Positions 3,217 to 63,418 of a DNA stretch of 64,000 nucleotides are shown in pieces. Position 1 is the first letter of the stretch, and every line of letters starts with the position of its first letter. The stretch spans positions 1 through 64,000 of the forward strand of contig NZ_JAQTMS010000020.1 of NCBI RefSeq assembly GCF_028714215.1, in the 5' to 3' direction. Under the pieces are notes generated by a model. The model made no database searches. It was given only the letters and a program-made list of their open reading frames with translations, and was not told the DNA's origin. This DNA is from Rhodoferax sp. Lineage in GTDB: Bacteria; Pseudomonadota; Gammaproteobacteria; Burkholderiales; Burkholderiaceae_C. The translations under genes and the position numbers were made by a program.

Positions 3217-6200
3217 ATGATTGACGCGACGCCTGCCCCTTCATCACGGCTGAAAGTAATGACGACCGTAGCACGTTGGTCGCTCTGGTTGACCGTGACG
3301 GCGTGGTTTCTTTGTGGGGCGACCTGGGGCGCGTTGCACTGGTTGATTGTGCCGCGAATCGGCGAGTTTCGCCCGTTGCTGGAAGCGCGGGCCACACATA
3401 TCCTGCGGGTACCGGTGCGCATTGGGGCCATCGTGGCGCATTCGACCGGCATGATTCCGTCGTTTGAAATCAGCAATGTCCAGTTGTTCGATGCGCAGGG
3501 CCGCGAAGCCTTGCTGCTGCCGCGCGTGCTGGCTTCCTTGTCGCCGCGCTCGCTCTGGTACCTGGGTTTCGAGCAGCTCTATGTGGATCGGCCCGAGCTC
3601 AATATCCGGCGTGGCCTGGATGGAAAAATAAGCGTCGCCGGGCTCGATTTTTCGAAAGACGGCGGTCCCGACGATGCCGCCGCCGACTGGTTTTTTTCGC
3701 AGATCGAGTTTGCCATTCACGACGGCACCATCCGCTGGACCGATGAGTTGCGCGCGGCGCCGACGCTGGAACTCAAGCAGGTCGATCTGGTGCTGCGCAA
3801 CCGCTTGCGTCGGCACGACCTGCGGCTGGACGCCACGCCGCCGGCCTTGTGGGGCGAGCGCTTCAGCCTGCGCGGCCTGTTCCAGCAGCCTTTGCTGTCG
3901 CGCAACAACGGCCGCTGGCAGGATTGGGAAGGCCAGCTGTACGCCGCTTTCAGCCGGGTCGACCTGTCCGAGTTGCGGCGCTATGCCGAACTGGGCATCG
4001 ATCTGCGCCAGGGTGATGGCGCGCTGACGGCCTGGGTCGACGTCAAAAAGGGACAGGTGCAAGGCGGCGCGGCGGACGTGGCCCTGCGGCAGGTCAGCGT
4101 TACCCTGGGGCGGGAGTTGCAGGCGCTGGAGTTGCAATCGGTGCGCGGCCGGCTGGGCGGCAAGTTGCTGGCCTCGGGCTTTGAATTCTCGACCCAGGCG
4201 CTGCAATTCGACAGCGCCGACGGCTTGCACTGGCCGGGCGGCAATGTCAGCGTCAGCTACCTGGGTGCCGAGGGCAAGCTGGCGGCGCGCGGCGAGCTCA
4301 AGGCCGACAAGCTCGATCTGAGCGCCTTATCGCAGATTGCCAACCGCTTGCCGCTGGACGCCGCCGTGCGCACCGCCCTGCTGGCCTATGCGCCCAAGGG
4401 GCTGGTGGAGCGGATACAGGCCAGTTGGCAGGGGCCGCCGGAGGCCTTGAGCAAATATGAGATCAAGGGGCGGGTCAGTCAACTGGAACTCGACAGCGTG
4501 GCCGACAGCCCCGGCGTGCGCGGCGCCAGCATCGATTTTGACTTCAACCAGGCGGCCGGCAAGGCCAGCATCAGCCTGGCCAATGGCTCGGTCGCGTTGC
4601 CGCAAATATTCGATGAACCGGTGATTGCCGTGACCCAGGCCTCGGGCGAGGCCCGGTGGCAGCTCAGCGGAGAACGCATTGCGGTGCAGGTCGCCAACCT
4701 GAAGTTCAGCAACGCCGACGCACAGGGCGAGGCGCAGCTCAAATGGGAAACCAGCGACCCGGGCAAATCCAGCGGCCGCTCGCGCTTCCCCGGCGTGCTT
4801 GATCTGCAGGGCACGCTCAGTCGTGCCGACGGTACCCGGGTGCACCGCTATCTGCCCAGCATCATTCACCGGCCGGCGCGTGACTATGTGCGCGACGCGA
4901 TTCAAGCCGGCAGCGCCAGCGCGGTCCGGTTCAAGGTCCGGGGCGACCTCAACGACATGCCTTTTGCCGACCCGAGGCAGGGCGAGTTCCGGATTGCGGC
5001 CGATGTGCAGAATGCCCGCTATGCCTATGTGCCGCGCAACCTGCAGCCGGCCGATGCCCTGCCCTGGCCGGCGCTGCTGCAACTCGGCGGCGAACTGGTG
5101 TTCGACCGCACCCAGTTGCAGGTCCGCGGCGCGCGGGCCAGGATCGGCCCCGGCGCCGGTCTGCAGGTCAACAAGGTCGATGCCCTGATCCCCGATTTGC
5201 GGCACGCCCAGGTGACTGTCACGGCCGACGTTCGGGGTGCCTTGGCGGACGGCCTGGCGCTGGTCAACGGCTCGCCGCTGGGCGCCATGACCGGGCAGGC
5301 CCTGGCCCGCGCCGTGGGCAGTGCCAGTGCCGATTACAAATTGAAATTGACCTTGCCGATTGCCAACCTTGAAAAATCCACGGTCCAGGGCAGCGTCACG
5401 CTGTCCGGCAACGACATCCAGATGACGCCCGACACGCCGCGCCTGAGCCGCTCCCGGGGCGTCGTGAATTTTTCCGAAAGCGGTTTTTCCATCGTTGGCG
5501 GCCAGGCCCGCATGCTGGGTGGCGAGATGCGGCTGGAGGGCGGCTCGCTGGCGGCCCTTGGTGCCAACGGCAATGCCGCCAGAGTAGCGCCTGCCATTAC
5601 CTTGCGCGCCAGCGGCACGGCGTCCGCCGAGGGCTTGCGCCAAGCCCGGGAGTTGGGCTTTGTGGCGCGTCTGGCGCAGCAGGCCAGCGGCAGCGCCGCC
5701 TACACGGCTGTGCTGTCGTTTCGCCGCGGCGAGCCCGAGTTGCTGGTGTCCAGCAATTTGCAGGGGCTGGGCTTGAGCCTGCCGGCGCCGTTGACCAAGA
5801 GCGCCGAGAGCGCCTTGCCGTTTCGGCTGGAGACGGCACTGCTGCGCGAGTCGCTGCTGAGTTCGCCACTGCGGCTGCGCGACCAACTGACGCTGGACCT
5901 CGGGAAACTGGCGTCGCTGGTGTATTTCCGCGATTTGTCGGGACCGGAGCCGCGCGTCACGCGGGGCAGCCTGGCGGTTGGTCTGACGCCGGCCGAGTCG
6001 GCCCCACTGCCGGAAGAGGGGGTGGTTGCCAACATCAGCCTGAACGCCTTCGACCTGGATGCCTGGGGCGCTGTTTTGTCGCAGGCCACTGGCGCGACTT
6101 TGACCGGTGGCGGCGCCGGTGCGGCCGCGCTGGGCTATCTGCCCAGCAGCGTGGCGCTGCGGGCACGGGAACTGACCTTCGGCGGGCGCAAGCTCCACAA

Positions 6201-41219: not shown

Positions 41220-41897
41220 CTATTTGCTGTCGAGGTCGGCCAGGTAGGCGGCGACCGAGTCTATTTCTTCCTCGCTCATGCGTTTGGCGACCACCCGCAT
41301 GAAGCGGCTGACGTCGTTGGAGCGCTCGCCGCTGGCGAAGTTTTTCAACTGCTGCGTCAAATACTGAACGTGCTGCCCGCTGATGCGCGGATAAACCAGA
41401 TGGCCGGCGCCTTGCGGCTGATGGCAGCCGACGCAGGCCGGCACACCGGTCTCTTCGTTGCCTTCGAAATACACCATCTTGCCGAAGCTGGCCGCCTTCT
41501 TGTCGCCGGCTTCGCCCGGCTTGACCTTCTGGCCGCTGTAAAAGCTGGCCAGCGAGACAAAATCTTCCGGCTTCAAGGCCGCCACCACCGGCGCCATGAT
41601 GTCGCTCTTGCGCCGGCCGTTCTGAAAGTCGCGCAACTGCTTGATGATGTAGCTCTCCGGCAGGCCGGCGATCTTGGGGAACATCGGGATCGCACTGTTG
41701 CCGTCCTCGCCGTGGCAGGCCACGCAGACCGTGGCGGCGATGGTCTTGGCATCCTGGGCGCAGGCCAGGCCGGCCAGGCCGCAGCCCAGTGTCAGCAGGG
41801 CGGTGATGGCGCGAGCCCGGTAGCCGGTGCGGAATTTTGGCTGCTTGTCTTGGTGAATCATTTTCTTCAGCTCCTGCGGCAGGTGTGTGGCTGTCAC
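41220..41897 (-). CDS. Diheme c-type cytochrome
   Basis: CVACH and CVGCH; ARAITALLTLGCGLAGLACAQ signal. A start at 41861 (MIHQDKQP) is also possible. Confidence 0.88.
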   Translation of the reverse strand: MTATHLPQELKKMIHQDKQPKFRTGYRARAITALLTLGCGLAGLACAQDAKTIAATVCVACHGEDGNSAIPMFPKIAGLPESYIIKQLRDFQNGRRKSDIMAPVVAALKPEDFVSLASFYSGQKVKPGEAGDKKAASFGKMVYFEGNEETGVPACVGCHQPQGAGHLVYPRISGQHVQYLTQQLKNFASGERSNDVSRFMRVVAKRMSEEEIDSVAAYLADLDSK

Positions 41898-44800
41898 AGC
41901 TTGTACTGGACAAATAGCCCGATGACGTTGGCGCGGTAGTTTTGCGGTCCGGCGTCGAGCAGCAAAGTACTGTTGTCGTACGCTCCGACGGCCTTGGTGA
42001 TGACGCCGTCGTAGTGCCAGTCCTTGACCTGTCCCAGCTCCAGACGGTCGTACAAGCGCACCGAGAGCTTCTTGCTGAGCGGAATCAGCAGGTTGAAGCT
42101 CAGGGTCTGCTGCACAAAAGTCATGTCCGGCAGCGCGCTGCCGGCCAGCAAGGCGGCGGCGGCCTGATTCGCGGCAACGCCGCTGAAGGCGGTGCTGCCA
42201 TATTCGTAGGCGATCTTGCTGCTGCTGTTGGCATAGCTGTAGTCGATGCCGAACTGCAGGCTGCCGATGGCGCTCTGGAAGCCCAGCCCCAGCACATCGT
42301 TGCGGTCGTCGCTGCGGGAGGCCCAGGCATCCGAGGCCGGCCGCGAGCCGCCCACGCCATTGACGTTGTCGGAGCAGGCCGAATAACCGTAGCTGGCCAG
42401 ATTGGCCAGGGTGCAGGTGTTGTAGACGGGACTCAGGGCGGCGCCCGAGTTCAGCTTCATGGAACGCTGACCTTGCTGGTACGAGTAGAAGCCGTAGAAG
42501 TTCTTGCCGGAGGCCGGCTGGTAGTTGAACTCCAGGCTCAGCGAGTTCTGTTTGTCCTTGTCCTGGCCGTAGAAGGAATCCGGGTATTTGATGTCCTTGG
42601 TCTGCCAGGTCAGGCCCAGGTCCAGGTCTTCGCGGGCCTGGTAGTTCAGGCGTGCATTGAAGATCTTCTGGTCGCGGTCGGCCTGGTCGTATTTGCGGAA
42701 GTAGTAGGAGTAGCGGTTGAACAGGTTGGCGTTGTTGGCCACCGTGCCGCCGGCCGGACTGAAGGCGGTATAGCCCAGCGTGCCGGCCAGCGCGATCTGG
42801 GTGGTGGGGTCCAGTCCCGGCAAGCCGGTGCCCAGATCGGCGAAGGTGCGGTAGTTGTAATCGCTGCCGCGTTTGCGGTCGGTCTCGAAAGAAGTGCGCA
42901 AGCTGGCATCGCCCAGCGCGCGATTGACGTAGCCGATCTTGAGCTTGTCCTCCCAGGTTTTATCGCGCTCCCGAAAATCGCGTTTGAACTCCTCGCGCTC
43001 CAGGGCCGCGTTCAGGCTGCTGGTGCGGCTCAGGTCCAAGTCGCCGGACAGGCCGTAGTTGATTTGTTTGGTCGAGCGGGCCTGGCCGAAGACCGGAATG
43101 TTGGCGCCGTTGGCCACCGCGCCGACGCCGGCGATGGCGCCGAAGGTGCAGGCTGGAACCGCCGCATAGCCCGGCAACACGTAGCAGCTTCCCGCTGTGC
43201 CGGGGGTCGCGCCGGGCTGCAGTCCGACCACCGCATCCATGTTGACGTTGTTGCCATCGGCGAAACCGCGGCCGAACTGGCCGGTCAGCGGGTTGTAGGC
43301 GGTGTAGCCGCCTTTGTTGGCCGTGTCGTAGTAGCGCAGCGCGCCTTTCAGGCTGAGCGCGTCGCTGGGTCGCACCGACAAGCCGAGGTCCAGCAGTGTG
43401 TTGTCGATGCGCTGCCTGGCGCTCTGCTGGCTCAAGGCGGCCGTGCTGTTCCAGTTGGCTACCAGCGAGCTGCCCGCCGCATAGCCGGCATTGGTGCTGG
43501 TGCCGCCGAATTTGGTGACGCCGGCAGCCGCCAACTGGGCGTTCTGGGCGGCCGAAATAGGCGCCAGCAGCGTGTCATTTTGCTGGCTGCTGGCCCACGA
43601 CAGCGCCGCCGTGAAACGACCCTTGTAGAAGTCCGGCAGCGAGCGTGCAAACTCGCCTTTCAGGTTGAAGGCGTTGTTGTCGGGATAGAGGTCGTAGGTG
43701 GCGGTCTGTACGGCGCCAAAAGGCTGATTCGAGTTCAGCAGGGGATACTGGACGTTCAGCGTGCCGATGTTGTTGCGAAAGAGCGCCAGCGACGTGCGCA
43801 AATTGGCCTGGGTCAGCGCGTCGGCGTACTGCAAGCCGCCCAGAAATTCGTGGCTGGTGTAGTCGATCGGTTCCGCGATTTCAGTCGAGATGTTGCCCGT
43901 GTTCAAGGCAAACGGGCGCGCGCCGGTACGCCGCTCCTGGCTGTAGCTGGCATAGCCCTTCCAGTTGTCGGTGAAGACCTTGTCGAAGCGGGCGCCGCCT
44001 TTTTTGCGCACCAGGCTCAACTCGCTCTCAGGCAGGCTCGCCAGCTTGTCGCTGATGGCTTTGGCCATGTTGGACTGGAGCGCGCCGCTGGCGCCGGCAC
44101 CGGTTGCCGCGGCAATGGCACCGGTGGTGGCGTTGGGCGTGCCGGTGGTGCCATTGATGGCGGCCAGCGCCGACAGGTTGGAATAGATCTTGCCGGCGTA
44201 GCTCCAGCAGGGCGCGGCAGCGCTGCACGCCACCCGCGGGCTGGCGCCAACGCTGGGGCTGCCGCTGGTGACCATGGTCGGCGCCGCCAGCCCGGTGCTC
44301 AGTTCGCCGCTACCCTCGCCGGCGTAGAGCGACTTCCAGCTGTCGGTGAAGACGTGCAGCGTTTCGTTGTAGAACAGCTTCAATTTCCAGTCGTTGTAGC
44401 GGCCTTGCTGGAGCGCGTAGAACTGGTCGTTCTGGCCGCTGCCGCCGCCAAAGGACTGGATGTAGCGGGCGCTGTCGGCCTGGTTGGCTTCGACTTCGAA
44501 GTAGTTGAGATAAGCCCCGTTCTTCAGATCCTTGTACTTGCGGAACAGCGAGTTTTTGCTGTCCGCGCCAGCCCCCAGCAGACCGGCCTCGATACCACCG
44601 GAATACTCCCAACCGCCTTCGGTCTTGCTGCTGGCGCCGTTGGCGCTGTCGTAAGGCAGGCCGTACAGCTGGCCGGAGGGCGAGTGCCGCACGGTATCGA
44701 AGCCGTCGTCGGCCAGCGGGCGCGGCACCGCCGAGCGGCCCGGTGGATTGAGGGCGTTGCCAAGGGCCATGTCGACGCCGACAGCGGAATCGGCCAGGGC

Positions 44801-44914
44801 CGGACCGGCACCCCATTGGGCCAGGGCGACGCCGATGCCGGCGGCAAGGATTTTCATGCGGGGACTAGCGGTCATGCGAAATGTTCCTGATGGATTGAGC
44901 GAGGTCATTGCCAT
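41894..44914 (-). CDS. MtrB/PioB family decaheme-associated outer membrane beta-barrel protein (large variant)
   Basis: About 1006 aa from ATG 44914; signal region (KILAAGIGVALAQWGAGPALA), repeated amphipathic beta-strand pattern ending in ANVIGLFVQYKL; adjacent to the decaheme cytochrome. Confidence 0.88.
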   Translation of the reverse strand: MAMTSLNPSGTFRMTASPRMKILAAGIGVALAQWGAGPALADSAVGVDMALGNALNPPGRSAVPRPLADDGFDTVRHSPSGQLYGLPYDSANGASSKTEGGWEYSGGIEAGLLGAGADSKNSLFRKYKDLKNGAYLNYFEVEANQADSARYIQSFGGGSGQNDQFYALQQGRYNDWKLKLFYNETLHVFTDSWKSLYAGEGSGELSTGLAAPTMVTSGSPSVGASPRVACSAAAPCWSYAGKIYSNLSALAAINGTTGTPNATTGAIAAATGAGASGALQSNMAKAISDKLASLPESELSLVRKKGGARFDKVFTDNWKGYASYSQERRTGARPFALNTGNISTEIAEPIDYTSHEFLGGLQYADALTQANLRTSLALFRNNIGTLNVQYPLLNSNQPFGAVQTATYDLYPDNNAFNLKGEFARSLPDFYKGRFTAALSWASSQQNDTLLAPISAAQNAQLAAAGVTKFGGTSTNAGYAAGSSLVANWNSTAALSQQSARQRIDNTLLDLGLSVRPSDALSLKGALRYYDTANKGGYTAYNPLTGQFGRGFADGNNVNMDAVVGLQPGATPGTAGSCYVLPGYAAVPACTFGAIAGVGAVANGANIPVFGQARSTKQINYGLSGDLDLSRTSSLNAALEREEFKRDFRERDKTWEDKLKIGYVNRALGDASLRTSFETDRKRGSDYNYRTFADLGTGLPGLDPTTQIALAGTLGYTAFSPAGGTVANNANLFNRYSYYFRKYDQADRDQKIFNARLNYQAREDLDLGLTWQTKDIKYPDSFYGQDKDKQNSLSLEFNYQPASGKNFYGFYSYQQGQRSMKLNSGAALSPVYNTCTLANLASYGYSACSDNVNGVGGSRPASDAWASRSDDRNDVLGLGFQSAIGSLQFGIDYSYANSSSKIAYEYGSTAFSGVAANQAAAALLAGSALPDMTFVQQTLSFNLLIPLSKKLSVRLYDRLELGQVKDWHYDGVITKAVGAYDNSTLLLDAGPQNYRANVIGLFVQYKL

Positions 44915-44928
44915 ATTTCCTTTCCCGA

Positions 44929-45957
44929 TCAGCGCTGGAAGCGCGCGCCCGAAGGACTGTTGCTGCCGTGGATCGCCGAGTGGCAGTTCTGGCAGGAACG
45001 ACCGGTCATGCGTTTGCTGGCGAGTCCGGCGGTGGCGCCGGCGGCGCTGTTGGCTTGCCGACCGGCATTGTTTTGACCGAACGAGGTGGGATCGCCATTG
45101 ACCACCGTACCCAGGGTGTTGTTGCCCCAGACGGCGTGACCCATGGTGCCGGTGGTGCTGTGGCAAGCGGAACACAGGAACGGGCGGGTCTGGATCAGCA
45201 GTTTGTCGGCGTTGGAGCCGTGCGCACTGTGGCAGTTCATGCAGTTTTCCCGCACCGGGGCATGTTCCCACAGGAAGGGGCCGCGCTTTTCCGCATGGCA
45301 GGTGTAGCAAAGGTCGTTGATGCTGTCGGCCTTGAGCAGGCGCTTGGCGCTGGAGCCGTGCGGGTTATGACAGTCGACGCAAGTCATCTTGCCTTCGGGC
45401 ACCGGCATGTGCGACTTCTTGCGGAATTCGGCGCGCTGTTGCTGGTGGCAGGTCTGGCAGGTCTCGGTGATGCCGGCCTTTTTCATCAAACCGTTGGCGG
45501 AGAAGCGGGCCATCGGGTTGTGGCAGTCGGAGCAGGCCAGTTTGTTGGTGGCATGGATGGAGCCGGGCCAATGCAGGCGCTGGCCGCCCGCGTGGCAACT
45601 CAGGCATTGACCATTCTGGCGCTCGATCGGCGTATTCCATTCCTTGGAGAAACCGATGATCTTGCCCTTGTCCTTGGTGTCGGTAAGGTGCAGCGAGCCA
45701 TTGCCGTGGCAGGCCTCGCAGACCGATTTTTCGGTGTCGTTGCGCGGATTTTCCCGGAACACCCGGGCATGCTGGGTATGGCCGAAAAGACTCTTCTCGG
45801 TGTCATGGCACTCGCCGCAGCGTTTTTCGCCGACGAGTCTGGCGTTCGCCTGGGGATCGCTGTCGGCCAGCGCCGGACCGGCCGGCCACAGGACGCACAA
45901 CAGTGCCGCCGCCAAGGCGCGCCAGCCGGGAAACGGGAGTGAATTGTTCTTTGCCAT
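44929..45957 (-). CDS. MtrA/PioA/DmsE-type decaheme c-type cytochrome
   Basis: Ten CXXCH motifs: CGECH, CEACH, CLSCH, CSDCH, CQTCH, CVDCH, CYTCH, CMNCH, CSACH, CQNCH; signal peptide. Confidence 0.95.
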   Translation of the reverse strand: MAKNNSLPFPGWRALAAALLCVLWPAGPALADSDPQANARLVGEKRCGECHDTEKSLFGHTQHARVFRENPRNDTEKSVCEACHGNGSLHLTDTKDKGKIIGFSKEWNTPIERQNGQCLSCHAGGQRLHWPGSIHATNKLACSDCHNPMARFSANGLMKKAGITETCQTCHQQQRAEFRKKSHMPVPEGKMTCVDCHNPHGSSAKRLLKADSINDLCYTCHAEKRGPFLWEHAPVRENCMNCHSAHGSNADKLLIQTRPFLCSACHSTTGTMGHAVWGNNTLGTVVNGDPTSFGQNNAGRQANSAAGATAGLASKRMTGRSCQNCHSAIHGSNSPSGARFQR

Positions 45958-51076: not shown

Positions 51077-54000
51077 TCAGCTCATTCTTCGTTTGGTCGC
51101 CGGTGGCTGTGAGCAGTCCACCACCAGAACCGCAATTTTGTGTCGCAGTTCCTCCGGCACGGTGGCTGACAATCGTTGCTCCAACTCTTGCGGTGTTTTG
51201 GGCTTGGCGCCGCCGTCACGGGCGCCGGGCTTCAGCTTTCCAGAAAACCAGAAGACCAGGTAGATGCCAAAACCATCGCTGGCGGATTCACGTCCGTATT
51301 TGGCGATCAATTGTTCTTGGATGGCCTTCCACAAGTGCGCATGCCACTCGCACTTGATTTCAATGGCCAAGTGAAGCGACCCAGCGATGATCTTGATGTC
51401 GGCCCGCTTTGCATCGGCATAGTGACCCTCTCGCTCAGCCGCAACACCCAAAGTTGCAAGGCGCGTCTTTAAATCTGATAGCAGCGCGTCGCGGCAATCA
51501 TCTTCCAGTTTTGGTTTTTTGTTGGCCCAATACTGCCTGTAGTCATTGGTGCTGCCAAGGCGAATTTCGCTCGCCAGTTGTGTCAGATGATCTACCGTCA
51601 AGGCCCACAGGTCAGCCACATTGGCGGGCTGTAGATTCGCCAGCGTGGCGCAAACCTGCGTGACAGAGGGCTGTTGGAATAGCGCTTTGCGCCGCACGAT
51701 GCGCTGCTCGTAAATGGCGCGGTCAAAGGACTCTTTCCATTGTTTCAAGTCTTGCCGCTGCTGTAGGGAGGTCAGCGCCTGCAATGCGGTTTCGTCCGGG
51801 TTGCCTGCCAGCGTTGCGATGAGGCTTTCAACGTAGCGGCCCATCTCCATCTCCGGCGTTACCCGATACACGCCGGACTGTGTTGCCCTTGGGCTTACTC
51901 GTGGCCCCAACAGCCCAATCAGGAAAGCCTGTGCGGCGGTGCTCAGATTGACTTGGACGCCGCCAAATTCACGCTGTTCGTGGATCAAGTCAAACAGATG
52001 GCCGGCGCGTGCCTGGGTTTTTCCGATGTACTGGATGGCTGCATGCAGATAAAGGTCGGGGGCCAGTTGCACACCCGCTGTCAGCCAGTAAACGCGCTGC
52101 GCCACATCCATGCCGTTGGCCCGCAGTTTGCTGGCAATCAGTCGGAGCTGGGTGTTCCTGTCCAGCTGGCGCACCACGGATGAGACCAGGTTTCGCAGCG
52201 TTTGAAGGTGTTTCCTGCTGGCTTTCAAAGGGAAATCTGCAATGAGTTGGGGCACAATTTTCCTGGCCACTTCGGCATAGGTGGCGTCGTGCGCCAGCGC
52301 GGATGCGCCGTTCACATGCTCTTTTTTCCGGACAATCTGTGCGCTCATCATCTGTTGCATCACGCCTGCCAAAACAGTCGGTTGTTGTGCCAGCAACTGC
52401 TTGAACCAGGCCGGTGATTCGTTGTAGTCGTGGGTCAGCCGGAAGGCGATGATTGTTTCAAGTGTGGCAGGAGGCAGATCAAGCGCCGACAGTGGGTCTT
52501 CTGCGTAGCGCATTTCCATGGCGGCAAGGCAGGGCAGTGCCAAGTTGTGGCGTTGACCCTTTGCTTCGAGGTCAATGATGTCGGCGGCAGACGGCAGGTC
52601 AAAGCGAAACAATGTTTGCCGCAAGCCGTGAAGGGCCAGCTCTACCCATGCTTCGTTGGCATTGAGCAAGCTTCGCAAACGTTCATCAGGGGTTTCGCCC
52701 GTTGAATCACTGTAGATATCGAGGTAAGCATTCGCTACCTCGACCAACGCACCCAAGTGAGCCGGGCCTTTGACAAAACTCGGCAAGGTTTCGCGAAAGA
52801 ATGTGATCGTCTGGCGAGTCTCTTCTGCCTCCCGCGCGTTGTGCGCAATCTCAAAGTCAATGTCTTGTTGCACGGACTCTGACGGTGGATAGGGACATTG
52901 CAATTCATCTGCTACCCAAGCTGCGTCGACGGGGTGGTCTGTTGACCATTTCTCGAGCAGCTCAATCGCCGCGTCGGGTCCGCATCTGTGGCTGGTTAGC
53001 TGAGACGATTCGCGAATCAGATGCCGCTGCAAGTCAACATCTGCACAAGATTCGGCCAGCGACAAATACCACGAGCTGGCGTCCTCAGGCGGCGAAGCGC
53101 TATAGAGACGCGCGCGAATTCCCCAGAGATTGCGCCCACTTCGGTCGCCCATACTGGCTTGCGCACGGAGTTCGTACTCAAACACCGCCCGGTATTGAGC
53201 TGGGTTCGTCTCAAACCATTGCCTCAAAGCGGCCTTGTTTTCATGGTTTAGCCTACAGTGCAGGTGAGAGTCCAGACCAAGGGAGAGCCAGTTGTAGAGG
53301 CGTGGAACGTCAACTTGCGTCCCGTCCTGTGTCACGCCTCGCACAAGCAATTCGCCCACAATCTCCGATGAACGCAAGCGATCACGTTGGTTGGGCAGTC
53401 GGTAGCCTGTGGCATGCAGGGCATCCAACAAGGCCGACACGTCTGCTTCAGGTATATTTCCCTTAGCGAGCTGGCGCCAAAAACGCCTGTATGAACCCGA
53501 TAGAAATTCAGCCCTCGGTTGTCTGAAATGACGGAGGAGTTCGGTTGGCGAAATATGGGTCGGATACAGCGCTTGCAGCAGTGTGCCTAGAAGCTCGTCT
53601 TCCTGGTCTTCGACGACATTGGCATGAACATCCACCAGTAGCGTCTTGAGCGTGACCTTGTCGTCTTTCACCTGTGCATAGGTGACGACGACGCGCAAAG
53701 CTGCGATGCGTAATGGAGGCCAATAGGTTTTGTCCCGTACCACCTGTTCCAACTCCGGAGCCAGCGCCGGCATGTGCTGCCCATGCGCCAAGGCGTCCAG
53801 CATGCAATGGATCAAGGACTGGTGCGCAGGGCTGCGGTCCGTGGACTTGAGCAGGGCCTTGAAGTCTCCTTCCATGTCTGCCGTGGCCAAGGCACCAAAG
53901 GGGTAACCGGTCCAGTTTCCGCGGCGAAAGGATGGGTCTTGTTCGGCCTCGTGTTGCAAGGCGCTCAGCACGGCCAGCTTGTCCGTGCGATGGAAGGCGC

Positions 54001-55183
54001 GCACATCGCCGTTCAGGACCACACCCAAGGGGTCGTGCGCTATCAACTCCCTGCGCAAGTTCGCTGGCGCTACCGCAGCCAGCCAGGCATGCAGGCCGCG
54101 CAGCTCGGGGACTATGCCAGCGTCCTGACCCAGCATCAGGGCCAGAACGCGGCTGGCGGGCAGACCCAGATGGATGCGTTGGGCCAGATAGCGTGCGCCC
54201 AGGTACTCGGCAACGGTTCGGTGAACCGGGCTGAAATCGCTCGGACCCCGGAAAAGCCGGGAGTGAAGGGCGAACCGGCAAGTTGACAGTCCAGGGGCAG
54301 AGGCTGCACTGAGTAGTTCGGGAAGGCTCATCACGCCCGCGCGCGGCTCGCTCCGCCGTTGCAGGGCAATGGCCCCGCTGCCGGACAGCAGCATGACGGC
54401 GCTGAGATAGCCCGCCGCCAACAGCACTTGGTCGTCGGACGGCGTGCTGTCGCGGGTGTTGGCCAGGTGCTCGGGGTTGGGCTCGCGCACCAGTTGCGCG
54501 CAGGCCCTCTCATAGGTTTCCGTCTTGTTGTCGGGCCACCGCTTGCCCGCAGCCCCCATGGCCTTGACCAGCAGGCGCAGGGTTTGCGGGTTGTCCAGCA
54601 AGCCCCTGAGGTCCCGTCTTTCGGCCTCTTGCATAAACACTTCGGCCTGGGCCTCGGTGCAGGGTTGCCAATGTGCGATCAGGGTCACCGATTGCGCGTG
54701 AGTCAATGGGGCCAGATGCAGTTCTACAAACTTGCCACTGCCGACCAGGCGCTGAAGTGCCTCTCCGTCGGCATTGCCGCGCCAATCCGCCTCGCGGCAG
54801 GAGATGCGGAATTTGGGTGTGTCGAGTTGTCGTAGTTTTTGGCGTATTTGGTCAAACAGGGAGGCACCTTGTGAGCTGCCAGCGGTGATTTCATCAAGCC
54901 CGTCAATGAACAGCGGTTGCTGCCAATCGACTGGCAAGCCGCCCCCAACAAATTCGCGCGCGCTGACGCAGGTGCCGCCTTCTACCAGGCTGAGGGTGTT
55001 AAATACATCCGATTTCCCCGCGCCGGGGTCCGCCAGCAACACCCAGGCGGGTACGTCCCGGTAGTGGCTCAGGGGCCGCGGGGCTGTCAGGCTGTCGTCG
55101 TTTTCCCGCGCTCGGGCCACGCGCTCCAGCGGCAGGCGTTCCTCTTGAGGATGGGGCGCAAGGGTGTTCAAGGCGGGAGTCAC
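51077..55183 (-). CDS. Large NACHT-like STAND NTPase with C-terminal PD-(D/E)XK-like nuclease signature
   Basis: 1368 aa; Walker A WVLLADPGAGKSDVFN, Walker B QPLFIDGLDEI, sensor-like FRISCREADW, long helical middle, C-terminus KRADIKIIAGSLHLAIEIKCEWHAHLW. Domain calls are by motif only. Confidence 0.75.
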   Translation of the reverse strand: MTPALNTLAPHPQEERLPLERVARARENDDSLTAPRPLSHYRDVPAWVLLADPGAGKSDVFNTLSLVEGGTCVSAREFVGGGLPVDWQQPLFIDGLDEITAGSSQGASLFDQIRQKLRQLDTPKFRISCREADWRGNADGEALQRLVGSGKFVELHLAPLTHAQSVTLIAHWQPCTEAQAEVFMQEAERRDLRGLLDNPQTLRLLVKAMGAAGKRWPDNKTETYERACAQLVREPNPEHLANTRDSTPSDDQVLLAAGYLSAVMLLSGSGAIALQRRSEPRAGVMSLPELLSAASAPGLSTCRFALHSRLFRGPSDFSPVHRTVAEYLGARYLAQRIHLGLPASRVLALMLGQDAGIVPELRGLHAWLAAVAPANLRRELIAHDPLGVVLNGDVRAFHRTDKLAVLSALQHEAEQDPSFRRGNWTGYPFGALATADMEGDFKALLKSTDRSPAHQSLIHCMLDALAHGQHMPALAPELEQVVRDKTYWPPLRIAALRVVVTYAQVKDDKVTLKTLLVDVHANVVEDQEDELLGTLLQALYPTHISPTELLRHFRQPRAEFLSGSYRRFWRQLAKGNIPEADVSALLDALHATGYRLPNQRDRLRSSEIVGELLVRGVTQDGTQVDVPRLYNWLSLGLDSHLHCRLNHENKAALRQWFETNPAQYRAVFEYELRAQASMGDRSGRNLWGIRARLYSASPPEDASSWYLSLAESCADVDLQRHLIRESSQLTSHRCGPDAAIELLEKWSTDHPVDAAWVADELQCPYPPSESVQQDIDFEIAHNAREAEETRQTITFFRETLPSFVKGPAHLGALVEVANAYLDIYSDSTGETPDERLRSLLNANEAWVELALHGLRQTLFRFDLPSAADIIDLEAKGQRHNLALPCLAAMEMRYAEDPLSALDLPPATLETIIAFRLTHDYNESPAWFKQLLAQQPTVLAGVMQQMMSAQIVRKKEHVNGASALAHDATYAEVARKIVPQLIADFPLKASRKHLQTLRNLVSSVVRQLDRNTQLRLIASKLRANGMDVAQRVYWLTAGVQLAPDLYLHAAIQYIGKTQARAGHLFDLIHEQREFGGVQVNLSTAAQAFLIGLLGPRVSPRATQSGVYRVTPEMEMGRYVESLIATLAGNPDETALQALTSLQQRQDLKQWKESFDRAIYEQRIVRRKALFQQPSVTQVCATLANLQPANVADLWALTVDHLTQLASEIRLGSTNDYRQYWANKKPKLEDDCRDALLSDLKTRLATLGVAAEREGHYADAKRADIKIIAGSLHLAIEIKCEWHAHLWKAIQEQLIAKYGRESASDGFGIYLVFWFSGKLKPGARDGGAKPKTPQELEQRLSATVPEELRHKIAVLVVDCSQPPATKRRMS

Positions 55184-56442
55184 GCCAGCTCAAGCCAATG
55201 CGCCAGCGGATACGACAGAAATTCCGTCAGATCAACGCCACCCGTGCCCACCAGCAAGGGCTTGCAGGCTGGATGCTGTTTCACAAATTCATCGAGCCCG
55301 CTGAGCTTGCCGGTTGAGGCGCCGCTCTTCACCTCAATGGCAGTAATCCGCAAGGCATCGGAAATGACGAAGTCCACCTCATGCGGGCTCTCGCGCCAGT
55401 AACTAATTTCCTCGTTGCTGGTCGCGGTGTTGCAGAGATGCGCTCCCACCGTGCTTTCAACCAGACGCCCCCAGTAGCTGCGATCAGCCTGTGCCTGGGC
55501 AAATGTGTAAGGTGTGGCGCTGGACATCAGCGCGCTATTGAGTACGTTGAATTTCGGGGCCGAGGCACGTCGGCGCGCTGCGCCGACGTGGTATTTTTGC
55601 AGTCCCGTCAACAGGCCGGCGTTGCGAAGCAGATCGAGGTAGCCGGCCAGGGTGGTCTCGTTACCGGCATCCTGCAATTGCCCTTTGATTTTGCCCAGCG
55701 CCAGGATCTGACCTGAATAGCTGGCTCCCAATTCAAAAAGTTGCTTGAGCAAAGCGGGCTTGTCAACACGGGTCATCTGAAGAATGTCGGTATCTATGCT
55801 GGGTTGCACCAAGCTTGCCAGGACATAGTTGCGCCAGCGCTCTTCGTCGCGTATCAATCGGGCGCTGCCCGGGTAGCCACCGAAATAGATGTATTCGTTG
55901 AGCGTGAAATCAAAAGCCTGGTGCATCTCGATGAATGACCAATGCGTTGCACGCATCAGCTCGTAGCGCCCCGCCAGGCTTTCCGTCAGGCCTTTTTGCA
56001 TCAGCAGAGGAGAGCTTCCCAGCAAGATTACATGCATCTCCAGGCCTTGAGCCCGGTCTGCATCCCACAAGCCTTTGACAGTGTCTGACCAGCGTGGGAT
56101 TTTCTGAATCTCGTCCAGCACAAAGGCGAAAGGCTGCGTCGGGTGGTTGAGTTTGAAGGCTTTCAATTGACGCCTGGCGTTCTGCCAACTGCGTATCAGC
56201 CATGCGGCATCCCGAGGCGCGCCGTCCATCTCGCTGGTCTGCGAAGTGAAGTCTTCGAACGCCGTGGCAAGAGGTTCGGCGGGCTGGTCGACGGCGATAA
56301 ACAGATGTGCGCATTTCTCCAGGGCTTGACGCACCAGGGTGGTTTTGCCGACTTGCCTTGGCCCGGCCACAATCGTGATGAATTGAGGCGCTTCTTGCAA
56401 CCGGTCGCGCAGGGCTTGAACTTGATCTCTGTGAAACACCAT
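55180..56442 (-). CDS. AAA_14/DUF4143-type ATPase with C-terminal nuclease-like fold
   Basis: Walker A IVAGPRQVGKTTLVRQAL, Walker B AFVLDEIQKIPRW, LLGSSPLLMQKGLTESLAGRYELM, C-terminal EVDFVISDALRITAIEVKSG; 4-bp overlap with the downstream gene. Confidence 0.9.
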   Translation of the reverse strand: MVFHRDQVQALRDRLQEAPQFITIVAGPRQVGKTTLVRQALEKCAHLFIAVDQPAEPLATAFEDFTSQTSEMDGAPRDAAWLIRSWQNARRQLKAFKLNHPTQPFAFVLDEIQKIPRWSDTVKGLWDADRAQGLEMHVILLGSSPLLMQKGLTESLAGRYELMRATHWSFIEMHQAFDFTLNEYIYFGGYPGSARLIRDEERWRNYVLASLVQPSIDTDILQMTRVDKPALLKQLFELGASYSGQILALGKIKGQLQDAGNETTLAGYLDLLRNAGLLTGLQKYHVGAARRRASAPKFNVLNSALMSSATPYTFAQAQADRSYWGRLVESTVGAHLCNTATSNEEISYWRESPHEVDFVISDALRITAIEVKSGASTGKLSGLDEFVKQHPACKPLLVGTGGVDLTEFLSYPLAHWLELA

Positions 56443-56443
56443 A

Positions 56444-56475
56444 AATCATACTGAGTAAATTTACTCAATATGATT
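56444..56475. promoter_or_regulatory. 32-bp near-perfect palindrome upstream of the AAA_14/DUF4143 gene
   Basis: AATCATACTGAGTAAA|TTTACTCAATATGATT; arms match 15/16; lies 1 bp upstream of the annotated start codon. Confidence 0.8.
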
Positions 56476-56636
56476 GCAAAAATCTTGGAATGTGTCAAAT
56501 GCGGTGCCGGTAGCTCCTTGATTTGTTGCACCTTTTCCCACGAAAGCCTCGGTTTTGTGCTACCAAAAGAGTAGCTAATTGCGCATTTCCCTCGGGAGGA
56601 GATACCTGCTTGCTGGGTAAAATGGCGATCTAATCT

Positions 56637-57344
56637 ATGAACCTGCTCGCCTTTGACACCAGTACCGAGCTCATGTCCGTGGCGGTGCGGCGTGGCGGGA
56701 CGGGGGCTGGCCAGGTTTGGCAGCACAGCGGCCCCGGCGGGGCGCAGACCTCGACTCACCTGATTCCCGTGATTCAAGAGCTGATGGGGCAGGCCGATCT
56801 CGAATTCGAGCAGCTCGATGCCATCGTTTTTGGCATGGGGCCGGGCTCCTTCACCGGCTTGCGCACGGCCTGTTCGGTGGCCCAGGGGCTGGCTTTTGGC
56901 GCGCACGTCAAGGTGCTACCGATCAATACCTTGCTGGCGGTGGCGGAGGAGGCGCGTTTTCGACACGCCGCCGCTCTGGAGCGCTGCCAGGTGACGGCGC
57001 TGCTGGATGCGCGCATGGACCAGATGTATGCCGGCCGCTATGAGTTTCAGGACCGGCAATGGCGCCAGAGTGGGGAGCACCGCCTGCTGCGCCCGGAAGA
57101 CCTTATTTGCGAGGCCGGCGACCTGCTGGCCGGCAATGTGTTTGCCGCCTATGGCGCGCGCTTGCCGGCGTCAATGGCGCTGCGCGTCGATGCCCAGCCC
57201 AGCGCCACCGCCTTGCTGCGCCTAGCCCCGAGCTTGCTGGCCGCCGGTGCCGCACTGCCGGCGCAGCAGGCCTTGCCGCTCTACATTCGCGACAAGGTGG
57301 CACAAACCACCCTGGAGCGCGCGGCGCACAAGGCGGTGTTGTGA
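56637..57344 (+). CDS. tsaB: tRNA threonylcarbamoyladenosine biosynthesis protein TsaB
   Basis: MNLLAFDTSTELMSVAV, FGMGPGSFTGLRTACSVAQGLAFG. Confidence 0.97.
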   Translation: MNLLAFDTSTELMSVAVRRGGTGAGQVWQHSGPGGAQTSTHLIPVIQELMGQADLEFEQLDAIVFGMGPGSFTGLRTACSVAQGLAFGAHVKVLPINTLLAVAEEARFRHAAALERCQVTALLDARMDQMYAGRYEFQDRQWRQSGEHRLLRPEDLICEAGDLLAGNVFAAYGARLPASMALRVDAQPSATALLRLAPSLLAAGAALPAQQALPLYIRDKVAQTTLERAAHKAVL

Positions 57345-59208: not shown

Positions 59209-59304
59209 CACAACCCTTCGACGCTCGCAATAGGATAAACCCGTAGTGCTGGTAAATGCTTACCGCACTCAGGCGTAACGGCTTGTTTAGCGAAGGAAAA
59301 AGTG

Positions 59305-60906
59305 ATGCGAATTCGATACTTGATGGCTGCCGCTATGGTGGCCATTTTTTTTACCGGGTCTGCTTCGGCGGCGGTAACCACGGCGCCGGCCAAGTTGCTG
59401 AAGTCGACCGCCGATCACAGCAAGTTCAAGGAGCTGGACCGGGACTTCGCTTCGGGTCCCGAGGTCACCAAGGCCTGCCTGAGCTGCCATACCGAGGCTG
59501 CCAAGCAAGTCCAGAAAACCGAGCACTGGACCTGGGAGTACACCAATCCCGATACCAAGCAAGTGCTGGGCAAGAAGCACATCGTCAACAATTTCTGCAC
59601 CTCGGTGCGGTCGAATGAAGCGGCCTGCAACAGTTGCCATATTGGCTATGGTTGGCGTGACGACAAGTTCGATTTCAGCGTCGAGGAGAACGTCGACTGC
59701 CTGGTCTGCCATGACCATACCGGCAAGTACAGCAAGCCCAGCGGTTTTGCCGGTCTGCCGGTCGCACGGGACACCGAGTTCCCGGCCGGCTCGGGCAAGA
59801 TCATCAAGGGCATCAACCTGAAGGAAATCGCCCAGAAGGTGGGCCCCACCACGCGCAGTACCTGCGGTGCCTGCCACTTCAAAGGCGGCGGCGGAGACGG
59901 CGTCAAGCACGGGGACCTCGACAGTTCGCTCGAAGCACCGGGCAAAGCGCTGGACGTGCACATGGACGCCAAGGGCCTGAACTTTGCGTGCGCCACCTGC
60001 CACAAGACCGACGATCACAAGGTCTCCGGCAGCCGCTATGCGCCCACCGCCAAGGACAAGGCACCGGCGCACATGCGCGGCGAGGCCGACAAGACCAATC
60101 CCGACACCTGCCAGGCCTGCCACGGACAAGCACCGCACCAGATCGTCAGGCTGAATGAACACACGGCAAAAATCGCCTGCCAGACCTGCCATATCCCGGC
60201 CTTCGCGCGCGGCGGCAACCCGACCAAGATGTCCTGGGACTGGTCCACTGCCGGCAAGCTCGACAAGGAGGGCAAGTTTCAGACCCTGCGCGACGAAAAC
60301 GACTACGACACCTACATGACCATCAAGGGTGACTTCAAGTGGGCCGAGAACGTCAAGCCCGAATACGTCTGGTTCAACGGCACCAACCACTACACCCTGA
60401 TCAGCGACAAGATCGAAAAAGGCGACAAGCCGGTTCAGATCAACCACTTCGAAGGCAGCGCCACGGACGGCAAGTCGATGATCTGGCCGATCAAGGTGTT
60501 CCGCGGCAAGCAGCAATACGACCCGATCAACAAGTCGCTGGTCATCACCCACCTGGCGGGCAATGACGACACCGCCTTCTGGAAGAACCTGGACTGGGTG
60601 AAGGCGGTCACCGAGGGCATGGCCAAAGGCGGTGTCAAGTTCTCCGGCAAGGTCGACTTCATCGAGACCGAAAGCATGTGGGCGATCAATCACATGGTGG
60701 CGCCAAAAGAAAAAGCGCTGGGCTGCGTCGAGTGCCACGCCAAGGTCGGTCGTCTGGACAAGATCGACGGTGTCTACCTGCCGGGGCGCAGCCGGGATCA
60801 CGCGCGCTGGCTGGAGATCGGTGGCTGGGCCATCGCTCTGTTAACCCTGCTCGGTGTGCTCGGCCACGGCCTGGTCCGCGTCATCGCGCGCAAACGCAAC
60901 AGCTAA
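59305..60906 (+). CDS. Octaheme c-type cytochrome, tetrathionate reductase (OTR) family, with C-terminal TM anchor
   Basis: Eight CXXCH motifs (CLSCH, CNSCH, CLVCH, CGACH, CATCH, CQACH, CQTCH, CVECH); GKKHIVNNFC region typical of the OTR family; C-terminal WAIALLTLLGVLGHGLVRVIARKRN. Confidence 0.88.
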   Translation: MRIRYLMAAAMVAIFFTGSASAAVTTAPAKLLKSTADHSKFKELDRDFASGPEVTKACLSCHTEAAKQVQKTEHWTWEYTNPDTKQVLGKKHIVNNFCTSVRSNEAACNSCHIGYGWRDDKFDFSVEENVDCLVCHDHTGKYSKPSGFAGLPVARDTEFPAGSGKIIKGINLKEIAQKVGPTTRSTCGACHFKGGGGDGVKHGDLDSSLEAPGKALDVHMDAKGLNFACATCHKTDDHKVSGSRYAPTAKDKAPAHMRGEADKTNPDTCQACHGQAPHQIVRLNEHTAKIACQTCHIPAFARGGNPTKMSWDWSTAGKLDKEGKFQTLRDENDYDTYMTIKGDFKWAENVKPEYVWFNGTNHYTLISDKIEKGDKPVQINHFEGSATDGKSMIWPIKVFRGKQQYDPINKSLVITHLAGNDDTAFWKNLDWVKAVTEGMAKGGVKFSGKVDFIETESMWAINHMVAPKEKALGCVECHAKVGRLDKIDGVYLPGRSRDHARWLEIGGWAIALLTLLGVLGHGLVRVIARKRNS

Positions 60907-60919
60907 CCGGAGAACCCTC

Positions 60920-61546
60920 ATGTCACGCGTCTATCTTTTCAAGCCTTTCGAGCGCTTCTGGCACTGGTGCCAGGCGGCACTGATCCTCTTCATGCTGCTG
61001 ACCGGTTTCGAGGTGCACGGCACTTACCACGTTTTCGGTTTCGAAAAAGCGGTGGGCTATCACAGCATCGCCGCCTGGACCCTGGTGGGGCTGTGGATCT
61101 TCGCCATCTTCTGGCACATCACCACCGGTGAATGGCGGCATTACATCCCGACCACGCACAACATCGTTGTCATTGCGAAGTACTACTCGTCGGGCATCTT
61201 CAAGGATGAGGTGCATCCATTTCGGCCCAGCCTGAGCAACAAGCACAACCCGCTGCAACGCTTGACCTATCTGGCGGTCTTGACGCTGCTCAGTCCGCTG
61301 ATCTGGTTCACCGGCTGGCTGTACCTTTTTTATGCCAGCTGGGCAGCCTGGGGACTGGAAAAACTGCAGTTGCAGTGGATTGCAACGGCACACACGTTCG
61401 GCGCCTTCCTGATGCTGGCCTTCCTCATTTCGCACCTCTATCTGGCCACCACCGGGCACAAGCTGACCTCGCAGGTCAAAGCCATGATCACCGGCTGGGA
61501 AGACCTGGCCGAGAGTGAGGAACCGATGCCGGGCAAGCAGCGCTAG
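60920..61546 (+). CDS. Di-heme membrane cytochrome b (cytochrome b561/hydrogenase-type)
   Basis: FKPFERFWHWCQAALILFMLLTGFEVHG, IFWHITTGEW, multiple TM segments with conserved His. Confidence 0.92.
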   Translation: MSRVYLFKPFERFWHWCQAALILFMLLTGFEVHGTYHVFGFEKAVGYHSIAAWTLVGLWIFAIFWHITTGEWRHYIPTTHNIVVIAKYYSSGIFKDEVHPFRPSLSNKHNPLQRLTYLAVLTLLSPLIWFTGWLYLFYASWAAWGLEKLQLQWIATAHTFGAFLMLAFLISHLYLATTGHKLTSQVKAMITGWEDLAESEEPMPGKQR

Positions 61547-61591
61547 CACTGGCCGCCAAGTTTTTACTGTTGAACTACCTAGGAGAAGTTG

Positions 61592-63418
61592 ATGGACAAA
61601 ATGTTTAAGAAGAAATTGCTGGTGGCCCTGATTGCCAGCATGGTGTTGCCGCTGGCGGCCCACGCTGCCGACGCCGACCTGTTGAACAAGATCGAGGCCA
61701 TGTCGCGCGAACTCGAAGCCCTGAAGAATCAGGTCCGGGCCAACGAAGCCAAAACAGCGCAGACGGCGGAACAGGTCAAGGCCGTGGCTGCCAAGTCCGA
61801 GGGCGCGGCGCTGGACGACTTGAAGAGCCAGGTGACGAAGCTTGAAGGCAAGTCGCTCGGTAAATGGCTGACGGTGGGCGGTGACTACCGCTTCCGTGTG
61901 GACGCCCTGGAGGGCCAGACCCGGACCTTCACGGACGTCAACGCCACCTTCGCCAACGCCCAGCAGAAGCTGCAGGCGGACTTCTTTGCCAATCCATCCA
62001 CCGCGGCCGGCTCATCGAGCTATTTCGGCGCACCCCAGGCCGGCGGCATGTCGATCGCCGGTGCCTTGAGCGGGCTGATGGCTTTTTCGCAGAACATGAA
62101 CAAGGTCGCCACCTTCGATCAGGCGAACGCGTTCCTGGCCAACCCGATGAACGCCGGCATGGTGCAGGGCATCGGCGCTTTCGCCGCCACCGTCCCGGCC
62201 TACAAGCCCGAGAACAAAAGCCTGTACAGCAACCGCTTCGGTATCGATCTGAACGCCAAGGCGACGCAGGACATCAGCGTCAGCGCACGGCTGCAGATGT
62301 ACAAGGTGTTCGGTTCCCAGGACGACTCGGCCATTGTCAACGCCGGCAGCGCCCCCTTCTTCGCCGACCGTGTCGGCGTCTTCGACGGGACCCTGAGCCA
62401 TGTGCCATCGAACAGCTATCTCAACGTCGACCGTGTCTACGCCACCTGGAGCAACATTGCCGACAAGGAAATCTGGTTTTCCGTCGGTCGCCGGCCGACC
62501 ACCAATGGCGCCCCCAGCAATCTGCGCCTGAACAACCCGCGCCCCGGCAATGGCGGTACCCCCTCCTTGCTGATCGACTACGCCTTCGACGGCATGACGC
62601 TGGGCTACGCCCCGGACATCGACGCTCTGCCCGGTGCCTACGGCAAGTTCTGCTATGGCCGCGGCTTCGAGAGTGGTTTCAGCAAGGCCTCCGGCAACTC
62701 GCTGGTCGATACCGACATGGTTGGTTTCTCTGTCGTCCCGATTGACACCGACCCGCTGCGTGTCTGGCTGATGTGGGACCGCGGCATCAACATTTTCGAC
62801 GCCCCGACGATGAGCAATACCTATTTCGGCAACACCGCCGCCAAGGTCAATCTGGGCGATATCGACTGGTTCGGCCTGGGCGCCATGAGCACGTTCAAGA
62901 AAGTGGGTCCGGGTGATCTGACGGTGTTCGGTGACGTGGGCGTCAGCGTCACCCACCCGAACAACAACGTGTCGGCCCAGTTCGGCTTCCAGGGCTTGCT
63001 GACGGGCTCCTTCTTCAGCCCCGAAGCACCGACCAGCAAGACCGGCACGGCAGTCTACCTTGGCATGCGCTACGACTTGCCGTCCAGGACCAAACTGGGT
63101 TTTGAATACAACCATGGTTCCAAGGACTGGATCACCTTCGCGCCGGCATCGGACGATATGTGGACCTCCAAGGTCGGCACGCGTGGCGATGTCTACGAGG
63201 CCTACATGATCCAGGAGCTGGACCGGGCGCCGATTTCTTCCTTCTTCAGTCGCGCCTTCTTCCGCCTGGGTGTCCAGCGTTACCACTTCAACTACAGCGG
63301 CAGCAACAACTGGGTTGGCGCGCCGGTCGAGATGAGCAGTGTCAATGGCCAGATGATGACCACCACGCCACTGGATTCGGCCACCAACGTTTACGCCACC
63401 TTCGAAGTCAAGTTCTAA
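61592..63418 (+). CDS. DUF3373-like outer membrane porin with N-terminal coiled coil
   Basis: Signal peptide, coiled coil (LLNKIEAMSRELEALKNQVRANEAKTAQTAEQVKAV), WLTVGGDYRFRVDAL, WFSVGRRPTTNGAPSNLRLN, C-terminal barrel ending VYATFEVKF. Confidence 0.82.
   Translation: MDKMFKKKLLVALIASMVLPLAAHAADADLLNKIEAMSRELEALKNQVRANEAKTAQTAEQVKAVAAKSEGAALDDLKSQVTKLEGKSLGKWLTVGGDYRFRVDALEGQTRTFTDVNATFANAQQKLQADFFANPSTAAGSSSYFGAPQAGGMSIAGALSGLMAFSQNMNKVATFDQANAFLANPMNAGMVQGIGAFAATVPAYKPENKSLYSNRFGIDLNAKATQDISVSARLQMYKVFGSQDDSAIVNAGSAPFFADRVGVFDGTLSHVPSNSYLNVDRVYATWSNIADKEIWFSVGRRPTTNGAPSNLRLNNPRPGNGGTPSLLIDYAFDGMTLGYAPDIDALPGAYGKFCYGRGFESGFSKASGNSLVDTDMVGFSVVPIDTDPLRVWLMWDRGINIFDAPTMSNTYFGNTAAKVNLGDIDWFGLGAMSTFKKVGPGDLTVFGDVGVSVTHPNNNVSAQFGFQGLLTGSFFSPEAPTSKTGTAVYLGMRYDLPSRTKLGFEYNHGSKDWITFAPASDDMWTSKVGTRGDVYEAYMIQELDRAPISSFFSRAFFRLGVQRYHFNYSGSNNWVGAPVEMSSVNGQMMTTTPLDSATNVYATFEVKF

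Follow-up and report, generated by a model that had tools for sequence, protein, structure and literature searches.

What kind of system is encoded by two overlapping open reading frames in a 64,000-nucleotide stretch of Rhodoferax sp. DNA (hereafter the window), and what does each of the two proteins contribute to it? From the letters of the sequence, the original prediction proposed an undescribed, possibly anti-phage operon, in which an AAA_14/DUF4143 ATPase is coupled to a giant NACHT-like NTPase. Both reading frames were confirmed on the minus strand: gene B (55180-56442, ATG start, 420 aa; supported by the ORF list, Pfam and PADLOC) precedes gene A (51077-55183, GTG start, 1368 aa; supported by NCBIfam and models), and the two overlap by 4 bp (55180-55183), an arrangement indicative of translational coupling; 51 of 69 coupled loci have a possible start of A at -4 relative to the end of B. 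In favour of the prediction, the operon is real and probably defensive; the larger protein, however, is of an already known kind. What appears from the sequences to be new is a coupled subfamily that spans phyla, together with a candidate operator that points to B as a regulator, whereas the original prediction had assigned this partner no role.

Results

Protein A is a full-length relative of the EruA family

Residues 32-1358 of A match positions 11-1318 of the 1318-position NCBIfam profile antiphage_EruA (NF058535; 3.8e-285, 949.7 bits), so A is of a known kind and the claim that it was undescribed does not hold. Its score falls short of the curated equivalog cut-off of 1000 bits and a same-genus relative reaches 1011 bits; membership is therefore borderline, and we call A EruA-like rather than EruA. 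The match to HyoA (NF058534) is weaker, a detectable relationship (5e-48, 163.6 bits) far below the HyoA cut-off of 1200 bits. Our literature search found no paper describing antiphage EruA or HyoA, and the label 'antiphage' is that of NCBI; a SlyA-type regulator called EruA in one paper is unrelated to A. A search of E. coli with an EruA-like gene from another genome gave no match, and neither A nor B had a convincing relative in the PDB by sequence.

In a Pfam scan of A no family passed and no NACHT match appeared up to an E-value of 1, so that the NACHT assignment is carried by fold and motifs. The motifs quoted in support of it (ADPGAGKS, FIDGLDEI, SCREADW and RADIKI..AIEIK) are all found in A and are conserved over 86 relatives. 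The NACHT NTPase and the helical/winged-helix region that follows it occupy approximately residues 46-340 (54164-55048), with aligned motifs at residues 51-58 (Walker A), 94-98 (Walker B, DGLDE) and from 321 (HRTVAEYLGA). The Walker A/B residues are kept in essentially all 86 clade members and, with the conserved HR..AEYL motif and an NLR-like fold, are the features by which A is recognized as a STAND/NACHT (NLR-like) NTPase. The AlphaFold model of residues 1-1105 (mean pLDDT 88.5) places the NTPase near the N terminus, as had been proposed, from about residue 46, followed by a helical solenoid of about 700 residues; its best PDB matches in Foldseek were NOD2, NLRC4, NLRP9 and NLRP3 (E-values of 2.7e-8 and up, probability 1.00), with secondary matches to the HEAT-type solenoids CAND1, karyopherins and FANCI. 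This all-helical solenoid, a putative sensor, spans residues 341-1095 (51899-54163) according to the model secondary structure and Foldseek.

The C-terminal nuclease of the original prediction was also borne out. The model of residues 1100-1366 (267 aa, pLDDT 90.5) has a predicted PD-(D/E)XK fold, and its top PDB matches, with weak E-values (best 0.008), were mostly to PD-(D/E)XK proteins (Hjc resolvases, Can1/Can2, PspGI and RecU). From alignment, model and Foldseek, the nuclease core was assigned to residues 1227-1356 (51116-51505), in which E1252, E1275, K1277 and Q1291 are found in 86 of 86 clade members and D1262 in 85. Elsewhere in the same genome, ORFs of 1527 and 872 aa at two further loci (L002, G000:C17:71589-71945, and L001, G000:C18:32707-32979) exceed the Pfam NACHT cut-off.

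Protein B is a PDC-S01 protein with invariant ATPase and nuclease-like motifs

Protein B matches Pfam AAA_14 (4.5e-21) and DUF4143 (3.3e-24), and over its full length the PADLOC candidate PDC-S01 (PDLC04791; 3.1e-162), an identity that the original prediction had missed. The AAA_14 ATPase domain covers residues 22-173 (55924-56379), and the DUF4143 region, which carries a nuclease-like EVD(355-357)...EVK(370-372) motif, covers residues 218-374 (55321-55791). None of the residues of Walker A (GPRQxGK), DE.Q, EVD and EVK varies among the 71 paired B proteins examined, which agrees with the description of the partner as a coupled ATPase with a nuclease-like tail. A winged-helix-like pattern was read by eye from the alignment at residues 218-273 (55624-55791), in the N-terminal half of DUF4143; no model matched in a Pfam HTH scan of B, so that the putative DNA-binding domain is a pattern reading.

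Coupled A and B genes form one clade found in several phyla

Scanning 85,462 species genomes yielded 80 named loci, and a tree was built from 103 full-length A proteins. EruA-like genes (E 1e-60) occurred in 24 of 399 genomes of the phylum sample, 7 of 369 of the class sample and 6 of 61 genomes of the genus. All 69 A genes with a full-length B directly upstream fell within one clade of 86 rows (SH-aLRT 99), the remainder of which comprised six with B fragments, four without room and seven without B; the 17 outer rows were all solo. The coupled loci belong to about eight phyla (Pseudomonadota, Acidobacteriota, Chloroflexota, Gemmatimonadota, Nitrospirota, Nitrospinota, Latescibacterota and Thermodesulfobacteriota), individual assignments being soft because many of the genomes are MAGs. 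The recurrent pairing that had been anticipated is far beyond chance; in the searched libraries it carries no name, and no characterized housekeeping family was found to fit it.

In the B tree, paired B proteins stand apart from A-less ones (SH-aLRT 99). Distances among A and among B proteins correlate strongly (r = 0.92, permutation maximum 0.17), as expected of linked genes that are transferred together, and are no proof of contact. Since a few A genes of the clade live without B, B is dispensable at least sometimes; at three loci an intact A adjoins a damaged B, which is frameshifted at L116 and has an internal deletion or survives as a remnant at L127 and L140. Judged by its sequences, the A-B pairing is a distinct subfamily of the known EruA-like kind. 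B and A also lie side by side on a 61.6-kb IMG/VR viral contig (L324:2027-7306), where the palindrome is degenerate.

The coupled pair lies mostly among housekeeping genes, and the context of some solo relatives is suggestive of defence

The copy in the window lies outside any defence island, between a divergent tsaB on the B side (start at 56637) and a PQ-loop/SemiSWEET gene 10 bp past A. The pair adjoins tsaB in several Comamonadaceae; farther out are an EamA transporter and a D-Ala-D-Ala carboxypeptidase. The close Comamonadaceae copies share this one chromosomal site. In pair-free genomes of the same genus, EamA lies immediately at tsaB (G812, G817, G811, G813 and G816) or tsaB adjoins SemiSWEET (G806). 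The GC3 of the pair is 0.67 against 0.79-0.84 for adjacent genes, which is consistent with a foreign origin. At the other coupled loci the flanking genes vary and are mainly housekeeping. A defence island around the coupled pair was considered and set aside as main evidence: PADLOC matches in its nearest neighbours were few and only slightly above those in control genes, a weak trend. An Rfam scan of 48-59 kb of the window gave no match. On either side of the pair (41894-45957 and 59302-63418) are multihaem cytochrome-like and outer-membrane beta-barrel-like genes, suggesting that the host organism may carry out extracellular electron transfer or metal respiration.

Compared with that of the coupled pair, the context of the solo relatives is more suggestive of defence. 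One of them, on a Pantoea agglomerans plasmid (L222), has Ppl, a tyrosine recombinase and an Abi gene as neighbours, and another, on a P. ananatis plasmid (L226), adjoins a TrlF-family ATPase and a tyrosine recombinase; both EruA-like genes are annotated solely as 'hypothetical protein', and the sites are likely to be a plasmid defence hot spot. At a further locus (L068:5836-7236 and 1736-5839, minus strand), a B-less EruA-like gene overlaps a restriction specificity (HsdS)-like gene by 4 bp and may, from this arrangement, belong to a type I restriction operon.

A palindrome at the promoter of B is a candidate operator

One base before the ATG of B lies a 32-bp palindrome, AATCATATTGAGTAAATTTACTCAGTATGATT (56444-56475, core 56452-56467), which the original prediction had overlooked and which we regard as a candidate operator. 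A sigma-70-like promoter, TTGACA-17-AATCAT (56470-56498, minus strand), places its -10 box inside the palindrome. The consensus over 66 loci is TTACnnTAyTGAGTAAA/TTTACTCArTAnnGTAA. Counted from the dyad axis, these coupled loci share a TTG(A) around -39 and a TACnnT spanning -16 to -11, which correspond to the -35 and -10 boxes. The core TGAGTN6ACTCA is present in all 69 coupled loci with room for it (57 exact, 12 with one mismatch), almost always 18-35 bp upstream of B. The arms at offsets 9-14 and 16-18 are complementary beyond shuffled partners (p about 0.002-0.006), with bases that vary by locus.

The site is also rare. The palindrome has a single copy in the entire genome of 5.16 Mb, and no second exact copy of the core was found in 994 kb of coupled loci. 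Among 399 genomes of the phylum, ten contained a stricter form of the palindrome; four of these are known coupled genomes, and another has a B cut short at the end of a contig. The remaining matches (G711, G383, G793 and G657) had no adjacent B and were dismissed as chance-like. Exact 16-mers on 83 viral contigs were considered as phage decoy sites and rejected, there being no A or B on the stretches fetched. An RNA hairpin was dropped as the first choice because the start point, as predicted and partly by inference, falls inside the palindrome.

The candidate operator follows B rather than A

Within the clade, the site is absent from nine of nine A genes that lack B (L124, L135, L152, L163, L168, L062 and L048) or have a decayed one (L127 and L140; Fisher 5e-12), and L116, in which B is merely frameshifted, has kept the palindrome. 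No palindrome was found before solo A genes outside the clade. Upstream of A-less B genes, by comparison, related elements are frequent and share a spacing of 22 bp: TTGAGTAA is repeated at this interval in L090, L091, L092 and L094, and as three direct repeats on a Bacteroides plasmid (L322, upstream of 3001); L326 (upstream of 333) has three variant TTGAGAA direct repeats, and Collinsella (L323) has TACTCA motifs, likewise at 22-bp spacing. In L093, L095 (a degenerate site) and Thermus (L321) the elements before B are weaker or partial. The 13-mer TTGAGTAAAATTA has exactly one copy in each of three genomes with an A-less B, just 5' of B; in distant PDC-S01 relatives (22-24% identity) the half-site is absent. 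A second, distant AAA_14-type ATPase was noted near the A-less B gene of L095 (L095:13852-15054). As the site is lost with B, absent from solo A genes and represented by related repeats before most A-less B genes, the operator follows B, and we infer from these sequence patterns that B may be a sequence-specific autoregulator that recognizes its own operator and governs A.

Discussion

Gene order, folds, conserved catalytic residues, the co-inheritance of B and A and an operator-like palindrome whose distribution tracks B instead of A, all computed here, describe an operon that we are modestly inclined to read as a self-contained, autoregulated two-gene immune module, composed of an NLR-like NACHT-nuclease (A) and an operator-binding repressor ATPase (B). 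According to this model, B would bind a palindrome of 32-38 bp that overlaps both the start point and the -10 box of the B promoter, and would thereby repress the B-A operon, perhaps in a manner dependent on its nucleotide state; it may additionally gate A directly. Infection would then lift the repression, trigger A through its solenoid, or both. The solenoid would sense an invader, most likely through a phage product, A would oligomerize via its NACHT domain, and the C-terminal PD-(D/E)XK nuclease would cut DNA. The operon is probably defensive, and its proposed anti-phage role rests on the EruA database name and on context. For B-type PDC-S01 proteins more broadly, we give an even chance to the proposal that they act as autoregulators, driven by ATP and binding DNA sequence-specifically, and not as stand-alone defence effectors; that they evolved with a TTGAGTAA operator (a palindrome or 22-bp-spaced repeats, in several phyla); and that one branch captured an NLR-nuclease and so formed a switchable immune operon, which then reached further phyla.

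Alternatively, B may be mainly a second catalytic component, a helper ATPase or nuclease in complex with A, the palindrome then serving for B feedback or being bound by another factor. Such a role would suit the correlated divergence of A and B, their tight translational coupling, and Walker and nuclease-like motifs whose invariance (71 of 71) exceeds the needs of a pure repressor. However, related operators precede B genes that have no A, several lineages keep A without B and the solo EruA relatives need no B; we consider this mainly catalytic role unlikely. The palindrome could also be the target of an unrelated host transcription factor that controls the operon by chance, a reading that accords with the ordinary sigma-70 type of the promoter and with a B whose DNA-binding domain is an eye-read pattern without an HTH model match. 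Against this, there is a single site per genome, the palindrome is conserved in about eight phyla despite differing flanks, and it disappears with B yet is present at most A-less B genes; such a coincidence seems very improbable.

The operon might also serve a purpose other than phage defence, as a toxin-antitoxin-like, plasmid-competition or stress module. Its mainly housekeeping neighbours and the single chromosomal site by tsaB in close Comamonadaceae would fit such a module, although the EruA naming and the NLR fold, the patchy presence (6 of 61 genus genomes, with the same site empty in relatives) and the solo relatives on mobile plasmids by Ppl/TrlF-type and Abi genes, or abutting a type I specificity-like gene in one case, favour defence and make this alternative rather improbable. 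That A and B are chance neighbours or an artefact of gene calling is a negligible prospect, already refuted by the recurrence of the adjacent pair, which is found at 69 full-length A genes in distant taxa where the flanking genes are unrelated.

Among known systems, EruA (NF058535) has the same NACHT-to-nuclease architecture as A over the full profile, whereas the outer EruA loci that we fetched, which mostly score higher than A, have neither B nor the palindrome. Avs (AVAST) proteins are large STAND sensors with a nuclease effector and a helical sensor region, the effector being typically N-terminal; A likewise combines a large STAND protein, a nuclease and a helical region, but its effector is C-terminal, and the PADLOC Avs models did not match A. 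The bacterial NLR-related proteins of clade 6, including bNACHT25, share with A a NACHT module and a PD-(D/E)XK DNase effector. In the canonical bNACHT layout the effector is N-terminal, the NTPase central and the sensor C-terminal, and bNACHT25 accordingly has its DNase at the N terminus and its sensor at the C terminus (PMC12169576). Protein A reverses this order, with the NACHT N-terminal from about residue 46, the solenoid central and the nuclease C-terminal (1227-1356). PDC-S01 is an unvalidated single-gene candidate, the fourth commonest PADLOC system and among the commonest candidate defence families, the function of which is not known (PMC12988326); here, in contrast, B is one half of a two-gene operon, seemingly with its own operator. 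A dedicated single-copy operator that follows this B clade across phyla gives PDC-S01 a directly testable biochemical role, and, if our model is true, bacterial NLRs would gain a genetically encoded switch, with a C-terminal nuclease layout unlike that of Avs or bNACHT25.
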